From positions 1 through 64,000 of the IMG/VR virus record IMGVR_UViG_3300046655_001278: a stretch of DNA of 64,000 nt; one strand, given 5' to 3'. The stretch comes from a virus. The position numbers and the translations under genes were made by a program. The first letter of the stretch is position 1, and every line of letters begins with the position of its first letter. This document shows positions 12,195 to 28,318 of this stretch, piece after piece. Under the pieces are notes generated by a model. The model worked only from the letters and a program-made list of their open reading frames with translations, was not told the origin of the DNA and made no database searches.

Positions 12195-13298
12195 TTACTT
12201 CTTAGTTTTTTTATATAACTCAAGAATACTTTTTTCTTCAACTGATAGTGTTTTAGGAAATTCGGGTTTTACAATTACATATAAATCTCCTTTTGCGTTT
12301 TCACTTCGCATATTAGGCAATCCATAATCTTTTATACGCAAAACAGACTCGGGTTGTGTATTTTGTGGAATTTTCAAATTTACTCCACCATATAGAGAAT
12401 TAATTGTTATATCTGTTCCTATTATCATATCGTAAAATGGTATATGCTCATGGCAGATAAGATCATTTCCGTCTCTTTCAAAATATTCATCTTTTTTAAT
12501 ATGAACTATAACGAATAAATCACCAAATGATCCTTGTCGTCCACCATAATTACCCATGTCAGTTACTCGCAACTTAGTTCCATCTGGACACCCTTTTGGT
12601 ATTTTTATACTCGTTTTCACACGTTCTTGTTTTACACCCGAACCTTTACATGGATTGCATGGATTATTTAATATATGACCACTTCCTCCACACGTTGGGC
12701 AAGTTTGTTGAATTTGCATAGGACCCATTTGTCGGTAAACTGATCCGTGTCCACCACACTGAGTACATGGTTTTAAACTAGAATTGGCAGTTTCTCCTGT
12801 ACCTTCACATGGTTCACACAATCCATTTCTAGTAAAACTAATATTTAATGTTTTATCTTTAATGATATCTTTTAATGTTAATTCAACTTCATGTACTAAA
12901 TTTGATCCTGTAAAGTTTTGCCTAGATTGATTATCTGATGTGTAAAAATGGGAAGAACCTCCGTGATTAGTACGACCTCCTCTTCTTTGATCAAAGAAAG
13001 AGTCAAACATATCAAATGGATCAAATCCTTGGTGATGGAATCCTGGTCCACCGGAATGTCCTCCACGTCCTTGTTGTGTGAACGCATCATGACCAAATTG
13101 ATCATATTGTTGTTTTTTACTTTCATTAGATAATACATCGTATGCTTCCGAAATTTTTTTAAACTTTTCTTCTGCGTCTGGATTATCTTTATTTTTATCG
13201 GGATGCCACTTTATAGCAAGTTTGCGATATGCTTTTTTGATTTCTTCTGGTGTAGCACTTCTTGATACATTTAAAATATTGTAATAATCTTCACTCAT
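12195..13298 (-). CDS. dnaJ: DnaJ (Hsp40) co-chaperone
   Basis: This 367-residue type I DnaJ has a J domain with HPD (KWHPDKN, about residue 33), a Gly/Phe-rich segment with [13 protein letters not shown], four CxxCxGxG zinc repeats ([32 protein letters not shown]) and the C-terminal substrate domains. It stimulates the ATPase of DnaK, which is encoded at 17908. Length is normal for the family. It has its own sigma70-like promoter at 13323-13351. Confidence 0.95.
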
Positions 13299-13382: not shown

Positions 13383-13784
13383 ATGATAAGTAGGAGTATA
13401 GCCAAACTTCTTGGAAAAAAACAATATAAGTCTGAAATTTTAATCGTAAAAGACAATTTTACTGCTACCTTTTCAAGTAATTCTTTGTTGGAATCCTTGA
13501 AGTGGACAATTCACGGAATCTATGAAGCATCTGGATTTGATCATCTTTCTTTTGACGAAGATATACTAGAAAAGGCAAGTAAAGGAATAGGTGTGTTTGG
13601 TAAAATCAGAGAATTTAAAATATTTAGTGTATCAACTTCGTCTGTTACTTTATTTGATTACACAAGACCAAAAAATGAAGATATTTTATTTATGAATAAT
13701 AAAATGATTTATATACCTGATAAAATTCTTAAAAATTTACGAGAACAGGATGCAAAACTTAGTGAATTAGATTTACTTAAATAA
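13383..13784 (+). CDS. Hypothetical protein (133 aa)
   Basis: This protein of mixed alpha/beta character shows no recognised motif. It contains SEILIVKDNFTATFSSN, then SLLESLKWTIHGIYEASGFD, and ends in a helix. It is divergent from dnaJ and converges with the NAD-type glutamate dehydrogenase, overlapping its end by 8 nt. A GATATTTATATAT element abuts the ATG. Confidence 0.5.
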   Translation: MISRSIAKLLGKKQYKSEILIVKDNFTATFSSNSLLESLKWTIHGIYEASGFDHLSFDEDILEKASKGIGVFGKIREFKIFSVSTSSVTLFDYTRPKNEDILFMNNKMIYIPDKILKNLREQDAKLSELDLLK

Positions 13785-15120
13785 TTCCATGAGCAATAGC
13801 TGCGTGTGCTACACGTAAAAAACCACCTACATTAGCACCAAGTGTATAATCACCCTCTGTTCCATATTTTCTTGCGTTTTTTAAGCAGTTATCGTGTATC
13901 TGTCTCATTATGTGTCTGAGTTTATTATCTACTTGAGGTAGACCCCATTTATCCCATCCTGCATTTTGTTGCATTTCAAGTGCAGATACTGCTACCCCAC
14001 CTGCATTTACTGCCTTACTAGGTGCGACTACCACTAATTTATCATTAAATACTTTTATTGCTTCTGCGGTACATGGCATATTAGCTGCTTCTACTACGAA
14101 TTTACAATCATTGTCTACCAACATATTTGCATCATCTTCGGTTATCTCATTTTGTATTGCACATGGTATTGCAATGTCACAACGAACTTCCCAAGGTTTT
14201 TTATTAGCATGAAAATCTACACCAAATTTTTCTGCAAATGGTTTTACTACATCTTCGTTAGATGAACGTAAAACTTCCATATATGGAATCATATCTTTTT
14301 TAATCCCATCTTTCATATATACATAACCATCTGGTCCTGATATTGATACAACCTTTGCCCCCATTTCTACTGCTTTTTTTACAACACCAAAAGAAACTTG
14401 ACCAAAACCACTTACCGTAATTATTTTTCCTTTTATATCTGTATGGTGATTTTTTAACATTTCTTCCGCAAAATATATTGTTCCAAATCCAGTTGCTTCT
14501 TTTCTTCCATGAATTCCACCCCAATGCGGTGCTTTACCTGTGATTAATCCTTGTTCATATTTACTATGAAGTGCTTTGTATTGACCAAACAGATACCCAA
14601 TTTCTTTATACCCAACACCTATATCACCCGCAGGTACATCTGTTTTATGACCAAGGTGAGTGTGGAGTTTTATCATGAACGACTGACAAAATCTCATTAT
14701 TTCTAAATCTGTTTTACCATTTGGATCAAAATCACTTCCACCCTTTGCTCCTCCAATTTGTAATCCGGTTAAACTATTTTTGAATGTTTGCTCAAATCCA
14801 AGAAACTTCATTGTTCCTAAATTAACACTTGGATGAAATCTCAACCCACCTTTGTATGGTCCAAGGACACTATTGAATTGTACTCGGTATCCACGATTTA
14901 CATGAACATTTCCTATTTCGTCAATCCAAGGTACACTGAATATAATTTGTTTTTCTGGTTCTGCCAACCTCTCTAGTAAATTAAGTTTTTTAAACTTATT
15001 ATGTTTATCTATTACCATGTGTAAACTTTCATAAACTTCATTTACAGCCTGAATAAAGATTGGTTCAGAGTGGTTTCTTTCTTCCACTCGCCTTATTACA
15101 TCATCCACATACTTGCTCAT
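13777..15120 (-). CDS. gdh: Glutamate dehydrogenase, NAD-type signature
   Basis: This 447-residue protein is a hexameric-type GDH, interconverting glutamate and 2-oxoglutarate plus ammonia. [14 protein letters not shown] holds the catalytic lysine region, [10 protein letters not shown] the second catalytic segment, and [11 protein letters not shown] the C-terminal substrate loop. The Rossmann turn reads SGFGQVSFG and the cofactor-discriminating strand ends ISGPDGYVY, as in NAD-dependent clostridial GDH (recalled as LSGPDGYIY), not SDSSG as in NADP enzymes. It lies 18 nt downstream of a second, NADP-type GDH. A 13-nt element AATATATATTAGT precedes the ATG. The physiological direction is unknown. 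Confidence 0.85.
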   Translation of the reverse strand: MSKYVDDVIRRVEERNHSEPIFIQAVNEVYESLHMVIDKHNKFKKLNLLERLAEPEKQIIFSVPWIDEIGNVHVNRGYRVQFNSVLGPYKGGLRFHPSVNLGTMKFLGFEQTFKNSLTGLQIGGAKGGSDFDPNGKTDLEIMRFCQSFMIKLHTHLGHKTDVPAGDIGVGYKEIGYLFGQYKALHSKYEQGLITGKAPHWGGIHGRKEATGFGTIYFAEEMLKNHHTDIKGKIITVSGFGQVSFGVVKKAVEMGAKVVSISGPDGYVYMKDGIKKDMIPYMEVLRSSNEDVVKPFAEKFGVDFHANKKPWEVRCDIAIPCAIQNEITEDDANMLVDNDCKFVVEAANMPCTAEAIKVFNDKLVVVAPSKAVNAGGVAVSALEMQQNAGWDKWGLPQVDNKLRHIMRQIHDNCLKNARKYGTEGDYTLGANVGGFLRVAHAAIAHGII

Positions 15121-15138
15121 ACTAATATATATTTACCT

Positions 15139-16561
<1,423 letters not shown>

Positions 16562-17907: not shown

Positions 17908-19842
17908 ATGGCTAAAGTAATTGGCATTGATTTAGGTACATCGAACAGTTGTGTTGCGGTGGTAGAAGCAGGAGAACCAAAAGTGATAACCAACTCAGAG
18001 GGAGCAAGAACTACCCCAAGTATAGTTGGATTTGCAAAAGACGGAGAACGACTTGTAGGTCAATCCGCAAAAAGACAAGCAATCACTAATCCAGAGAATA
18101 CAATTTTTTCTGCGAAACGTTTAATCGGAAGAAAATACAAGGAAGTAAAAGATGAAGTTAAAAATCTTCCTTATGAAGTTGTCTCAGGTAAAAACGGAGA
18201 TGCTTATATTAAATGTAAAGAAGGTGATGAAGAAAAAGAATATGCACCTGAATTCATTTCAAGTATTATTCTGAGTAAACTTAAAGCAGATGCAGAATCA
18301 TATCTTGGTGAAGAAGTAAAACAAGCAGTTATTACCGTACCTGCTTACTTTAATGATTCACAAAGACAAGCAACTAAGGATGCAGGTGAAATCGCAGGAC
18401 TAGAAGTATTGCGTATCGTTAATGAACCAACAGCTGCATCACTTGCTTATGGATTAGAAAAGAAGAACGAAGAAACAATCGCAGTTTACGACCTTGGTGG
18501 TGGAACTTATGATGTTTCTATTTTAGAAATTGGAGACGGAGTATTTGAAGTTAAATCTACCAATGGTGATACTCAACTTGGAGGAGATAATTGGGATGAT
18601 ACTCTTATTGACTTCCTTGTATCAGAGTTTAAGTCAGAGTCTGGTATTGATTTGAAAGATGATGGTCAAGCAATGCAACGTCTTAAAGAAGAAGCAGAAA
18701 AAGCAAAGGTAGCATTATCATCAAGTTCGTCCACAACAATTAATCTTCCGTTTATTACTGCGGATGCAAGTGGACCAAAGCACTTAAACATTGATGTTAC
18801 TCGTAGCAAGTTTGAACAAATTTGTGACTCTCTGTACACTCGTACAAAAGAACCATTTGAAAAGTGTCTTGATGATGCAGGTATCACAATGAGTGATGTT
18901 AAAAATCTCATTCTTGTTGGTGGAATGACTCGTAGTCCTAAAGTTGTTGAAATTGCAAAAGAACTTGCAGGTGGTAATGATCCACATCAAGGAGTTAATC
19001 CGGATGAGGTAGTTGCACTTGGTGCGGCTATTCAAGGTGCTATATTAGCAGGAGACGAGGGTGTAAGTGATGTTTTGTTGCTTGATGTAACCCCACTTAG
19101 TCTTGGAATAGAAACACAAGGTGGGGTATCTACACCAATGATTGAACGCAATACTACAATTCCAACTAAGAAGTCTCAAGTATTTACAACTGCATCTGAT
19201 AATCAACCCGGTGTTGATATTGTAATTCTTCAAGGAGAAAGAGCAATGTCTGCTGATAATAAAAAACTCGGTAATTTCAAATTAGATGGAATTTCTCCTG
19301 CTCCAAGAGGAACTCCTCAGATCGAAGTTACATTTGATATTGATGCTAATGGTATTCTTAATGTTTCTGCCACCGATAAAGGTACGGGTAAGGATCAAAA
19401 GATTACAATTAGTGATTCAAGTGGTCTTGATAAAGATGAAGTTGAAAAGATGAAAGCCGATGCTGAAAAGTATGCTGAAGAAGATAAACAAAAGAAAGAA
19501 GGAATTGAACTTCGTAACCAAGTAGATTCATCGGTTTATCAACTTGAAAAAATTCTTGAGGAAAATAAAGAAAAAATTCCAGAAAATGAAACAAAGCAAA
19601 CCAATGAACTTCTTGAAGATGTTAAAAAGCAACTTGAAGATACTTCTATCACAGGTGACAAATTAAAAGAATTAAATTCTTCTATAATGGAACATCTTCA
19701 AAAACTTGCTCCGTTTATGCAAGCAGAACAAGAAAATGTATCACCCGACCAATCTAATCCAGAAACTAAATCAGAAGATGTAGTTGATGCAGACTTTGAA
19801 GTTGTTGATGAAGAGGAAAAGGAAGATACTGCTAAATCCTAA
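17908..19842 (+). CDS. dnaK: DnaK (Hsp70) chaperone
   Basis: This 644-residue full-length DnaK has the nucleotide-binding domain with [14 protein letters not shown] (phosphate 1), [15 protein letters not shown] (phosphate 2) and [11 protein letters not shown] (adenosine), the linker [15 protein letters not shown], the substrate-binding beta domain and helical lid, and an acidic tail [16 protein letters not shown] typical of bacterial DnaK. AAGAGG lies 10 nt before the ATG, one of the few strong Shine-Dalgarno sites here. It works with the DnaJ at 12195; no GrpE is seen. Phage-encoded complete DnaK is rare. A strong terminator follows. Confidence 0.97.
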
Positions 19843-21404: not shown

Positions 21405-21875
21405 ATGAGCTTTGTTTACTTTATATGTCCAGAAAACCAACACCTTTCAAAATATTGTGAAGGATTTTTTAATTACCTTACTTATGGATATAAAACATGG
21501 ACACGTGATCGTTACGTTTCTACATCACCGAAAGACAAAGACGGAAGATCAAGACTATTAAGAAGTAAATATGCTCCACTTATCGATGAAATGAAAGCAA
21601 ATGATCCCGTGTTTGATAGAATTCATCGGAAAGTAATTACATCTGATTGTTATCAACATTCTTACCAGCAAATATCAGAAGAGGAAGTTGCCAACAGTTC
21701 ACAGATTGTTTATATTACTTGTAATAAGAAACCATCAGGACCTCCACAATATCTTTCATCTGATAAAAATTCAGTTGTTGTGTGGAAGGTTTCTAATATA
21801 GAAAAGTTGACCGAGAATAAATTTGAATTGTTAGAAATGTTGATACGAAGAATGGCAAAACCACATCAGTCGTAA
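21405..21875 (+). CDS. Hypothetical protein (156 aa)
   Basis: This soluble protein has no recognised domain. Notable are FVYFICPENQHLSKYCEGFF, two further cysteines and the strand SQIVYITCNKKPSGPP. CGGAG at 21391-21395 is 9 nt before ATG 21405 but touches ATG 21396, so the later start is chosen. Its end overlaps the convergent 911-residue protein by 10 nt. Confidence 0.5.
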   Translation: MSFVYFICPENQHLSKYCEGFFNYLTYGYKTWTRDRYVSTSPKDKDGRSRLLRSKYAPLIDEMKANDPVFDRIHRKVITSDCYQHSYQQISEEEVANSSQIVYITCNKKPSGPPQYLSSDKNSVVVWKVSNIEKLTENKFELLEMLIRRMAKPHQS

Positions 21876-24601
21876 AGATTACCTACAATTTCACCAAAGT
21901 TTCGCATAATAATACCAGCACAAGCATTTGCTTCGTTTTCTATATCACTACCCGTTTCACCACTATTTACCTCAAGCATTTCTAGTTCATTTTGCTTTTG
22001 ATGAACCATTTCATGTGCAATACTACGACACACGTCGGCAAATGCTCTTCCTTTTGTATATATAGAAATTTCATTGGTATTGGGATCATAACAAGCAGCC
22101 GTCATATTTTCATGTCTTTTCTCTAAAAGTTTCACTGATACTTTTTCTTTTAATTGTAATGCGTTCTTTGCAAATTTAATAAACTCTTGAACATTATCTT
22201 TGTTCATTGCGACTTCGTTTAGTGTTTCTTTTGTATATTTCATATCTGGATGTTTTGTATCTTTGTTGTTTTTAGAAATTATTTTGTTATTAGAAAAGGA
22301 TTCCACGGGAATGTCATTGCCAAGATACATTTCTTTAAATTCCTTAAACCATTGTTCAAATGTAAAATCTCCGATTCTTAACCCATAGTCGTGGATAGTT
22401 TGTTCTTTAAAGTGATTTGCAACCCCACCTACGAAGTGATAGTAACTTCCACTTTTCTGTACTTTTACATTTGGAAATCCTTTGTCTTTTAACATTTTGG
22501 AAACCTGTGCACCTGATTTTGGTGATGACTTCATATTGATTTCTTGTATCTTCACTTCGTTTATATTTGCTCCACCGGTTCTAACAATCTCACGAAAGAA
22601 CCAACGAGTCCACTCTCCGAGTTTACCAGGTCCTCTTATTATATATAGTTTAAATGCTTCTGCAAATGCTTCTTCTGCATTTGTGTTTCCGTAATTGGTA
22701 ATATGTTCTATTGGTATTTCTTTACCAGGACCAACCCATCTATCTGCTAATTTTGTTACAACTTCTTTTCTGTTCTCGGTTGACCACACGGATGACATTT
22801 GCATTGCCTTGAACTTTGCTTTAGTCTCGGCGTTGTCTTCGTTTTTATCAATGACTCTTAATCCTGCTTTTCTTTTGTGTATCTTGCTTCCATTCTTATC
22901 AAAATACTTTTCTACATAATCTTCTACATCTTTACGTTCAATAGATACTTTCTTGCTTTTAATTGTATCTTGCCAATGCTTCTTTGCATTAGATGGAACA
23001 TTACGATACCAAAAACGATGACCAAGTTCGTGTGTAAATGTATCTTGGGTCATTCCACATCCGTATAACTTGAGCATATCTTTGTTCATATAATACTCAC
23101 CATTGACCATTTCCCCCGTATCTGCTGTTAAACCGAAATCTAAATCAACGGTTAATCCTTCTATGCACTTTCCGAATCCTGCTTTTTGAATTTTCTTTGA
23201 CCAATGCTTGATTCCATTTACCAACTCCTTGAAACTTTTTTCACGACTTGCTTCACCTTGTTCTGTTCCACCTTTTCGTTTGAAGTTATGAATAACCAAT
23301 TTAACAGGTCCTATTTGTGCTTGTTCAATTGGTTTCTCTCGTTCTTGATCACCCTCTATTGCGATGTACTGAAGAAGTGCTTTAATTCCCAAACGGAATT
23401 CTGCACGATACCTTCGAATATTCTTTTCACGTTCTCTTGCAAGTATTTGTGGACTTACACGATGCTTTTTAGTTTGAAAGTCCCACATCTCTGGAAAGTT
23501 ACCACCAAGACTTGTAACTGCTCTCCAGCATTTTTCACGAACTTCTTTTTCTTCCCACGTTTCCATCTTCTTACCACTTGCACCTGTGTGTTTATACTGC
23601 AAAAAGAACTTATAAACCCATTGTTCAAAGTTTTCTTGGAATGTACCAAATGCTCTTCTTACTTTCTTAAAGTCTTTGATTGTTTGTGGGTCTTGGCTAT
23701 TATCACCAATGGATTTATATGCCTTTGTAAGAACTCTTAAATCCTTTGCCCACTTTTTTACAGAGTTGCTATCAACCTTAACTTTGCTTTCTGAAATGAC
23801 TTCCGACAACTTCCCTTTTTGTATATACATATATAAACCTGCTAATCGTTTCTTGAACTTCTTGAGATATTTGCTATTGATGTATGTAAGAAAGTCTTTA
23901 TCAAAGAACTCTACATCAATTGCCCAATCTTGAAATGCTTTGTAACTTTCTAATTTTTTCTTTTTGAAGTCAGCAAGAAATTCTGGACGATGTGCAAATC
24001 TGTCGGATAGATTTTTCCATACACGAATTATTTGAGATTGTCCTGCTTGGTAATATGCATTAAATTCTTCTGGTGTGTTGTAGTATCCTTCTATATCTTG
24101 TGTATCTAAGTACTTGGCACTTGTTTTACCTAAACCACGACTACGATACCTCAAATGATCAAGAAAGTGTATATATTCGTGAATGAATGTATCTTTATCA
24201 AGACGAGTATCCATATACTTGCCATTGTAATCACCAAGTAGATTAGCATTTACAATTACACCTTTAAATGATATTCCACCGACTTTCAAACTTTTGTTTG
24301 TAAAACCACCTGCGATTGTTTGACCACCACGTGATGTACTTTTTGTTGGAATGAAAAATAATACTACCTCACTTAAAGACGGAAAGTTTTTGTCTATGTC
24401 TGTTCCTCTAAGAGCAACACCTTTCCATTGTGTAAGTGGTATAAATGGTTTGTTGACTATACTATCGTCACCTTCACCTTCTAATTTATTCTTATGTTTA
24501 CTTAAAAATCGCACCACTTTATCATATGCTTTCTCGGCAATACCGGTGTAATACATATCTTGCTCTACGTTTGCTTCTTTAATATGGGTGCTATTCATCA
24601 A
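21866..24601 (-). CDS. Giant protein with three HExxH zinc-protease motifs
   Basis: This 911-residue protein contains three separate zincin-type sites: HEYIH at 141-145 with EEFNAY (178-182) as a possible third ligand, HELGH at 524-528 with AEEAFAEAF (642-650), and HEMVH at 863-867 with IENEANACAG (887-896). Each resembles a stand-alone phage metallopeptidase domain of the HExxH...E type. Residues about 190-480 are helical and charged, linking domains one and two. It may be a virion-associated or injected protease array, or a maturation or wall-degrading enzyme. TAATATTTATACTTG precedes the start. ATG 24598 is an equally good start. Confidence 0.65.
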   Translation of the reverse strand: MMNSTHIKEANVEQDMYYTGIAEKAYDKVVRFLSKHKNKLEGEGDDSIVNKPFIPLTQWKGVALRGTDIDKNFPSLSEVVLFFIPTKSTSRGGQTIAGGFTNKSLKVGGISFKGVIVNANLLGDYNGKYMDTRLDKDTFIHEYIHFLDHLRYRSRGLGKTSAKYLDTQDIEGYYNTPEEFNAYYQAGQSQIIRVWKNLSDRFAHRPEFLADFKKKKLESYKAFQDWAIDVEFFDKDFLTYINSKYLKKFKKRLAGLYMYIQKGKLSEVISESKVKVDSNSVKKWAKDLRVLTKAYKSIGDNSQDPQTIKDFKKVRRAFGTFQENFEQWVYKFFLQYKHTGASGKKMETWEEKEVREKCWRAVTSLGGNFPEMWDFQTKKHRVSPQILAREREKNIRRYRAEFRLGIKALLQYIAIEGDQEREKPIEQAQIGPVKLVIHNFKRKGGTEQGEASREKSFKELVNGIKHWSKKIQKAGFGKCIEGLTVDLDFGLTADTGEMVNGEYYMNKDMLKLYGCGMTQDTFTHELGHRFWYRNVPSNAKKHWQDTIKSKKVSIERKDVEDYVEKYFDKNGSKIHKRKAGLRVIDKNEDNAETKAKFKAMQMSSVWSTENRKEVVTKLADRWVGPGKEIPIEHITNYGNTNAEEAFAEAFKLYIIRGPGKLGEWTRWFFREIVRTGGANINEVKIQEINMKSSPKSGAQVSKMLKDKGFPNVKVQKSGSYYHFVGGVANHFKEQTIHDYGLRIGDFTFEQWFKEFKEMYLGNDIPVESFSNNKIISKNNKDTKHPDMKYTKETLNEVAMNKDNVQEFIKFAKNALQLKEKVSVKLLEKRHENMTAACYDPNTNEISIYTKGRAFADVCRSIAHEMVHQKQNELEMLEVNSGETGSDIENEANACAGIIMRNFGEIVGNLYD

Positions 24602-24647
24602 GTATAAATATTAACCACGCATAAATATATACATTTTATATAAGTAC

Positions 24648-27199: not shown

Positions 27200-28318
27200 C
27201 TATTTCAATAGTTGATCTGGATTAAGTGAAATCAAATCATTAACGACAAACTCTCCGTCTTTGCGAATAAGTTCATCATCAAAGTAAATTTCACCTCCAC
27301 CATAATCTGGTCTCTGAATCTTAACCATGTCCCAATGAACTTGCGAATCATTTCCATTGCTTGCATCATCATAGCATTGACCGGGTGTAAAGTGAAAACT
27401 TCCACCAATCTTTTCATCAAATAAAATGTCACGCATAGGTTGAACAACATAAGGATTAAATCCAATAGCAAACTCACCAATGTATCTTGCTCCATCATCA
27501 CTATCAAGAATTTCATTTAATGCTTCTGTACTTGCATCACTATTTGCAATTGCATCAACAATCTTTCCATCTTTGAATTCCAACCGAATTCCATCAAAGT
27601 CTGTTCCACGATAAATTGTCGGAGCATTAAACTGAATGTGTCCTTGGACACTATCCTTGATTGGACAACTGAATACTTCTCCGTCCGGAATGTTATGAGT
27701 TCCACCACAAGCAACTGCACCTATATCTTTAATAGAGAAACGCAAATCTGTATCATCACCTTTAATGTGAATTTTATCTGCGTTTTGCATTCTTGTTTGA
27801 AGGTTACTCATTCCTGGATTGAACTTAGAGTAATCAAATGTACATACATCAAAAAAGAAATTCTCAAATGCTTCGGTACTCATGTTTGCTTGTTGTGCCA
27901 TTGCAGGATGTGGCCATCTTAAAATACACCACTTGGTTTCGTTTACACGATAATCAAGATAAGGTTTAGTTACCTTGGACATCATCGTTTTAATGTCTGC
28001 ATCTACATCACTTGTTTCGTATATATTATGAGAACCTGCGATGGCAATATATGCATCCATTTCTTGAATCTTAGGCATACTGAACTTCATAAAGATTTCC
28101 ATTTGCTCTTTGGTTGCGTGTTGCATAATCTCACGACCAATACGACTTTGTGAAGTTTGTACAAAAGGTATTCCTCCGTATTCACGAACTGCACGAACAA
28201 GTGCAATCGTCATATTTTCCGGCACTTCTGTGTTGTCTATTAATACCTTTTCTCCTTTCTGTAAAGACACACTATGTCTTACAAGAAGGTCTGCTAGTTT
28301 TGTATAATTTTCTTCCAT
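27200..28318 (-). CDS. M29-family metallo-aminopeptidase
   Basis: This 372-residue protein matches M29 (AmpS/PepS/aminopeptidase T). DGEVFSCP gives the first metal Glu, [11 protein letters not shown] the second, GGSFHFTPG a metal His, and VHWDMV the His and Asp ligands; the family's N-terminal domain [20 protein letters not shown] is also clear. It removes N-terminal residues from peptides in the cytoplasm. Its length is a little below the usual 410. Such a housekeeping peptidase is unexpected in a phage; with ClpP it could recycle amino acids from degraded host proteins. Confidence 0.85.

Follow-up and report, generated by a model that had tools for sequence, protein, structure and literature searches.

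The internal head proteins of bacteriophage T4 are textbook cargo of a phage capsid. Cleavage by gp21, the prohead protease of T4, falls after L/I-x-E, and a capsid-targeting sequence (CTS) of ten residues is all that a T4 internal protein requires for packaging (PMC9026906). In phiKZ and SPN3US, propeptides are removed at S/A/G-x-E (phiKZ) or A-x-E (SPN3US) sites, according to two accounts (PMC10052503, PMC5694885). Polyvalent proteins, known from phages as well as conjugative elements, form a further class and carry one to five metallopeptidase domains (Iyer et al. 2017, PMC5512222).

The window analysed here (the whole stretch of 64,000 nucleotides, which lies within a 130.6-kb virus record, G000) contains a gene for a 911-aa protein with three HExxH sites (Table 1). 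With a probability of roughly 0.6, we read the product of this gene, which belongs to a T4-related phage, as a polyprotein cargo of the capsid that would be packed, cut by an S77 protease and ejected as zincins. Specifically, the chain would consist of three unrelated zincin metallopeptidase modules (and a fourth small module in some relatives) connected by L/I-x-E joints, and T4-like targeting peptides, one N-terminal and one ahead of the third module, would draw it into the prohead core. During head maturation a gp21-like S77 protease would cut after IKE9, LSE267/ISE271, INE682 and LNE796 and free the separate D1, D2 and D3 proteases inside the head, to be ejected with the DNA and to cleave host proteins early in infection. 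Motifs, their conservation, selection, gene content and family relations are observed; that the chain is packaged, cut and ejected, that its modules are active and what they attack is inferred, and the cargo is probably injected into a bacterium.

Table 1. Features of the 911-aa gene and its product (nucleotide positions in the window, residues in the protein; arrows mark predicted cuts)
Feature	Position	Strand	Basis
Whole ORF, 911 aa, TTG start	21866..24601	minus	sequence, homologs
N-terminal capsid-targeting-like peptide MNSTHIKE↓A, res. 2-9	24575..24598	minus	L/I-x-E in 8/8 homologs
D1, zincin-like module 1, res. 10-267 (modelled domain about 11-262)	23801..24574	minus	alignment, model
HEYIH 141-145	24167..24181	minus	sequence, D1 alignment
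E179, invariant third-ligand candidate of D1 (E-x-NAYYQ)	24065..24067	minus	D1 alignment
Predicted cut sites LSE267↓V and ISE271↓S, after D1	23789..23809	minus	8/8 homologs
Helical region between D1 and D2, res. 272-420, without family match	23342..23788	minus	domain search, model
D2, zincin-like module 2, res. 421-675	22577..23341	minus	alignment, model
HELGH 524-528	23018..23032	minus	sequence, D2 alignment
E644, near-invariant third-ligand candidate of D2 (E-x-F-x-E)	22670..22672	minus	D2 alignment
Predicted cut site INE682 (IKE in two homologs)	22556..22564	minus	8/8 homologs
Optional module, res. 688-783, weak match to phrog_9154 (70-position phage family)	22253..22540	minus	homolog alignment, profile search
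Internal capsid-targeting-like peptide MKYTKETLNE↓V, res. 787-796	22214..22243	minus	homolog alignment
D3, zincin-like module 3, res. 797-911, widespread phage metallo-protease family	21869..22213	minus	alignment, profile searches
HEMVH 863-867	22001..22015	minus	sequence, D3 alignment
E888, invariant third-ligand candidate of D3 (E-N-E-A-N)	21938..21940	minus	D3 alignment

The ORF is real, and its HExxH sites lie at the residues given in the original prediction. Codon 2 is an ATG (24598), a likelier start than the TTG because homologs begin MNSTHIKE. From the composition of the protein (H 2.4%, E 8.1%) about 0.04 HExxH sites are expected, so that the probability of finding three by chance is near 1e-5. 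Seven IMG/VR loci (L001-L007) encode homologs with 88-95% identity, all of which retain the three sites, some with HELVH in place of HEMVH. The dN/dS ratios of D1, D2 and D3 (0.10, 0.14 and 0.07; 0.17 for the D1-D2 linker) indicate purifying selection, and the claim that the motif is kept at every site is borne out. Judged by their sequences, D1, D2 and D3 are three different, separately evolving zincin-like families and not repeats of one domain, and each family is also found alone in other phages. Since a joint alignment of the relatives of all three mis-registers the motifs, the domains were aligned separately. A full-length AlphaFold model (with D2 relatives) reached a mean pLDDT of 43.8, was poor outside D2 and gave no matches in a fold search.

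The assignment of D1 as a zincin-like metallopeptidase module is reasonably supported by alignment and model. Its diverged relatives come from Salicola phage SCTP-2, an uncultured 484-kb phage and some eighteen IMG/VR contigs, and across 22 D1 sequences H141, E142, H145, E179, N181 and Q185 are invariant, with A182 and Y183 nearly so. In the D1 model (pLDDT 74, pTM 0.81), the HExxH motif is placed on one helix and E179 on a later one. The six N-terminal residues are disordered, as is the chain from about residue 280, and the last long helix ends near 261; the first and last predicted cut sites of D1 would therefore lie at the edges of the folded domain. A fold search against the PDB returned best matches at E > 0.4, with metallopeptidase chains among the weak matches only, and the significant fold matches were solely to unnamed phage proteins.

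The D2 family was collected by the motif HELGHR[FY]W, and its members are found in large phages. The zincin-like metallopeptidase assignment is well supported here, as judged from alignment and model: E644 is conserved in at least 90% of the D2 set, F646 is also nearly invariant, and the core model has a pLDDT of 70-86 around the HELGH and E644 helices, with strands at 483-513 preceding them. Members weakly resemble ATLF, Peptidase_Mx and Zincin_1, and a phage-database search with D2 gave no significant relatives. More specific assignments were rejected. A lethal-factor-like M34 peptidase had weak matches only (ATLF in 4/19 members, best E 1.4e-3) and a PDB match at E 0.011 that spans one helix, while the Pfam match of Reprolysin_3 over HELGH (E 9e-4) falls below the cut-off of that family and covers little beyond the motif.

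For D3, likewise well supported by its alignment as a zincin-like metallopeptidase module, H863, E864, H867 and E888 are invariant across 37 sequences, and at least 546 candidate stretches exist in IMG/VR. The likeness to Peptidase_M78 (IrrE-like) and the phage metallo-protease family phrog_87 runs through relatives, with 19 of the 37 members matching the former (E down to 3e-4) and 16 the latter (E down to 2e-7); the window's own D3 matches neither at these values. It does match a minor-head/DNA-pilot family at E 1e-4. Taken together, the predicted third zinc ligand finds a conserved Glu candidate at all three sites, well supported for D2 and D3 and reasonably so for D1. The triple architecture itself also stands, as three modules, although the count of three is less striking alone because up to five metallopeptidase domains are already known from one phage protein.

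The original prediction did not note the L/I-x-E sites that bound the modules, and these point to a cargo polyprotein in place of one three-headed enzyme. In the window protein and its seven homologs, L/I-x-E is kept (8/8) at IKE9↓A, LSE267↓V, ISE271↓S, INE/IKE682 and LNE796↓V. The optional module, which is present in the window and 2/7 homologs and for which a phage-database search gave no significant relatives, is bracketed by such sites on both sides: the other 5/7 homologs lack about 100 residues, and the gap falls between INE682 and LNE796. Two of the predicted joint sites lie inside T4-like targeting peptides, one N-terminal and one ahead of D3, the candidates being MNSTHIKEA and MKYTKETLNEVA; the first (MNSTHIKE↓A) would, by sequence match, be a T4-like capsid-targeting peptide. 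The protein contains twelve L/I-x-E in total, several inside folded parts, and those at 23, 78, 142, 663, 819 and 827, in or near such parts, would need shielding from the protease.

A protease suited to these sites is predicted in the same genome, where a Peptidase_S77 gene (gp21-like prohead protease) is found at G000 121297-121737 (E 2.8e-27). The genome also encodes a gp23-type capsid protein (phrog_138) with IDE↓A at the place of the T4 gp23 cut; this protein is closest to those of Flavobacterium phage immuto, the uncultured 484-kb phage and Microcystis phage Mel-JY01 (52-54% identity) and then Rhodothermus phage RM378. S77 was detected in 23/23 records of at least 100 kb that bear D1 or D3 (19 when the window's four near relatives are left out), as against 2/5 random records of similar size and 6/32 records selected by the D2 motif. 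In a wider set of 50 records, chosen for D1, for D3 or for a D2 protein that starts like a targeting peptide, it was detected in 34. Where S77 is present, D2 proteins start, for example, MKFKQYLKE↓D or MRLSDVLLE↓A, whereas many from records without S77 start with an RVAxR[YF] motif, a small contrast that depends on the choice of start codon. A motif of the latter kind is common to the D2 proteins of L130, L133, L149, L166, L172, L175, L178 and L179 (large phages in which S77 was not detected), and it is perhaps another capsid-targeting signal.

Peptides of this kind recur at module boundaries across the D1 and D3 families. Stand-alone D1 proteins start MKLTHLFE↓A, MKLSDIIE↓AKILQRLAE↓S, MLLRDLFE↓A and similar, and 12/14 dereplicated D1-family N-termini have L/I-x-E in their first 20 residues (4.9 in shuffles). 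Stand-alone D3 proteins often start MKKFKQFLNE↓S, MLKFKQYLKE↓E or MNYKQFLRE↓S (the last in Synechococcus phage B23); the site is present in 11/21 (5.4 in shuffles), about half being without the peptide. Where D3 is fused, L/I-x-E occurs at most 30 residues upstream in 15/17 cases versus 7.4 expected. The shuffles were composition-matched, and relatedness was handled by dereplication alone. Of nine patterns, L/I-x-E is the sole one strongly enriched in all three sets; L/I-E, L/I-xxxE, L/I-x-D, V/M/F-x-E and A/S/G/T-x-E show no enrichment in them, L/I-xxE is more weakly enriched (1.7-1.9x, N-terminal sets only) and L/I-x-K reaches 1.5 in the fused D3 set. Some fused relatives repeat the joints almost to the letter. 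For instance, L052 has LNEVKIQ repeated between modules, nearly the same as the window joint INEVKIQ, and the N-terminus of L060, MNLGQYLANILLE↓AENQP, recurs as a nearly identical internal peptide in L053 (LNE↓TNLGRYLASLILE↓AEDQP), where one gene has apparently been joined, targeting-like peptide included, to the end of another, the sites being kept. In L116, MKTFKQFLMKES (P3 residue M) lies between an ART-PolyVal module and D1.

These fusions bear on the strongest alternative, namely that the gene encodes a classical polyvalent protein (Iyer et al.) that is packaged and injected and is either processed by its own zincins, before or after injection, or acts uncut. Zincins are the commonest polyvalent domain and were proposed to self-process (PMC5512222), and the chains into which D1 and D3 are fused carry ART-PolyVal, ParB, cytidylyltransferase-like and Pol-beta (nucleotidyltransferase) modules. 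The joints, however, follow the L/I-x-E rule of the S77 protease, D1 and D3 track S77 phages, and both also occur alone, where there is nothing to self-process, so we regard this alternative as unlikely. As separate observations, the D3 fusion encoded at L096:3170-6736 is 1189 aa long and also contains a sigma-70 region 1.1-like domain and two ART-PolyVal stretches. Outside the window, G000 109883-112402 encodes an 839-aa protein without a Pfam match, which by eye begins like an NMNAT/cytidylyltransferase and has LVE/LEE close to its N-terminus and an internal LLTE↓GG joint ahead of a ligase-like stretch; it is perhaps a second cargo polyprotein of the same phage.

Less probable still is a cytoplasmic, unpackaged set of proteases made during infection, with L/I-x-E as a coincidence of linkers. 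The gene adjoins a gp44-like clamp loader and replication genes, outside the head cluster, and N-terminal L/I-x-E is frequent in the genome (31/128 genes versus 16-25/118 in control stretches), a count in which head genes are not set apart from other genes. For both reasons L/I-x-E is weak evidence alone, and the weight of the cargo reading lies in the family-wide enrichment at module boundaries and in the association with S77. Against the cytoplasmic set stand that enrichment over composition-matched shuffles, which is missing for most neighbouring patterns, the conservation of L/I-x-E in 8/8 homologs on both flanks of an optional insertion, and the match of D3 to the minor-head/pilot family. 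That the modules are zincin folds without catalysis, acting as binding or structural head proteins, is very improbable: D1 has no solved homolog and module activity is predicted from sequence, but even between very diverged relatives there is little or no variation at the catalytic Glu, the two His and the Glu proposed as third ligand.

A late-promoter test was set aside, as TATAAATA-type and TATTTATA elements were found upstream of mixed gene classes, and late expression can therefore not be deduced from them. The element TATTTATA lies about 11 bases ahead of the start codons of several genes (including window 24602-24615), perhaps in place of a Shine-Dalgarno sequence. Elsewhere in the window are two adjacent genes for full glutamate/leucine-type dehydrogenases (13777-16476; PF00208/PF02812), phage-borne DnaJ and full-length DnaK (12195-13298 and 17908-19842), and a phage-borne M29 aminopeptidase-like metalloprotease (27200-28318; PF02073, E 7e-54).

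If the cargo-polyprotein reading is correct, prohead protease sites would (i) allow large 'hypothetical' phage proteins to be read as strings of injected enzymes, (ii) predict virion proteins and (iii) offer a possible explanation for the processing of multidomain polyvalent proteins in S77 phages. A cargo that combined three different proteases would point to host proteins being attacked directly as infection begins. We lean, by a narrower margin of confidence, towards a broader version, in which T4-related phages widely make injected effectors as fused polyproteins with internal targeting peptides kept, and one protease serves both for head maturation and for release of the enzymes, as with the polyproteins of eukaryotic viruses.

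Compared with the known systems, the locus resembles the T4 internal head proteins (IPI-III, Alt) in its predicted N-terminal targeting peptide, which closes with L/I-x-E, in the gp21-type S77 protease that the genome encodes and in having small, variable, effector-like proteins. T4 cargo, however, comes as single units, whereas the window gene has several units per chain, predicted cut sites and a second, internal targeting-like peptide. In phiKZ and SPN3US, a gp21-related protease likewise trims many internal head proteins, inner-body and ejection proteins included, but the available portions of those accounts do not describe the release of several enzymes from one chain (PMC10052503, PMC5694885), and no report of effector units freed from one chain by a prohead protease was found in the open-access literature. 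Polyvalent proteins also carry several effector domains per chain, zincins most often, and relatives of the window modules are fused to two of their domains, ART-PolyVal and ParB. A polyvalent protein combines domains of disparate activity and travels with the DNA; the window protein is multidomain, its recognised domains belong to one activity class, and on the cargo reading it would be transferred with the DNA. Where self-processing was proposed for polyvalent proteins (PMC5512222, which makes no mention of capsid-targeting sequences or S77), the window joints match the prohead protease rule instead. What the comparison suggests as new here is that the joints between modules are L/I-x-E sites, two of them within targeting-like peptides, and that a prohead protease of T4 type is encoded by the same phage.
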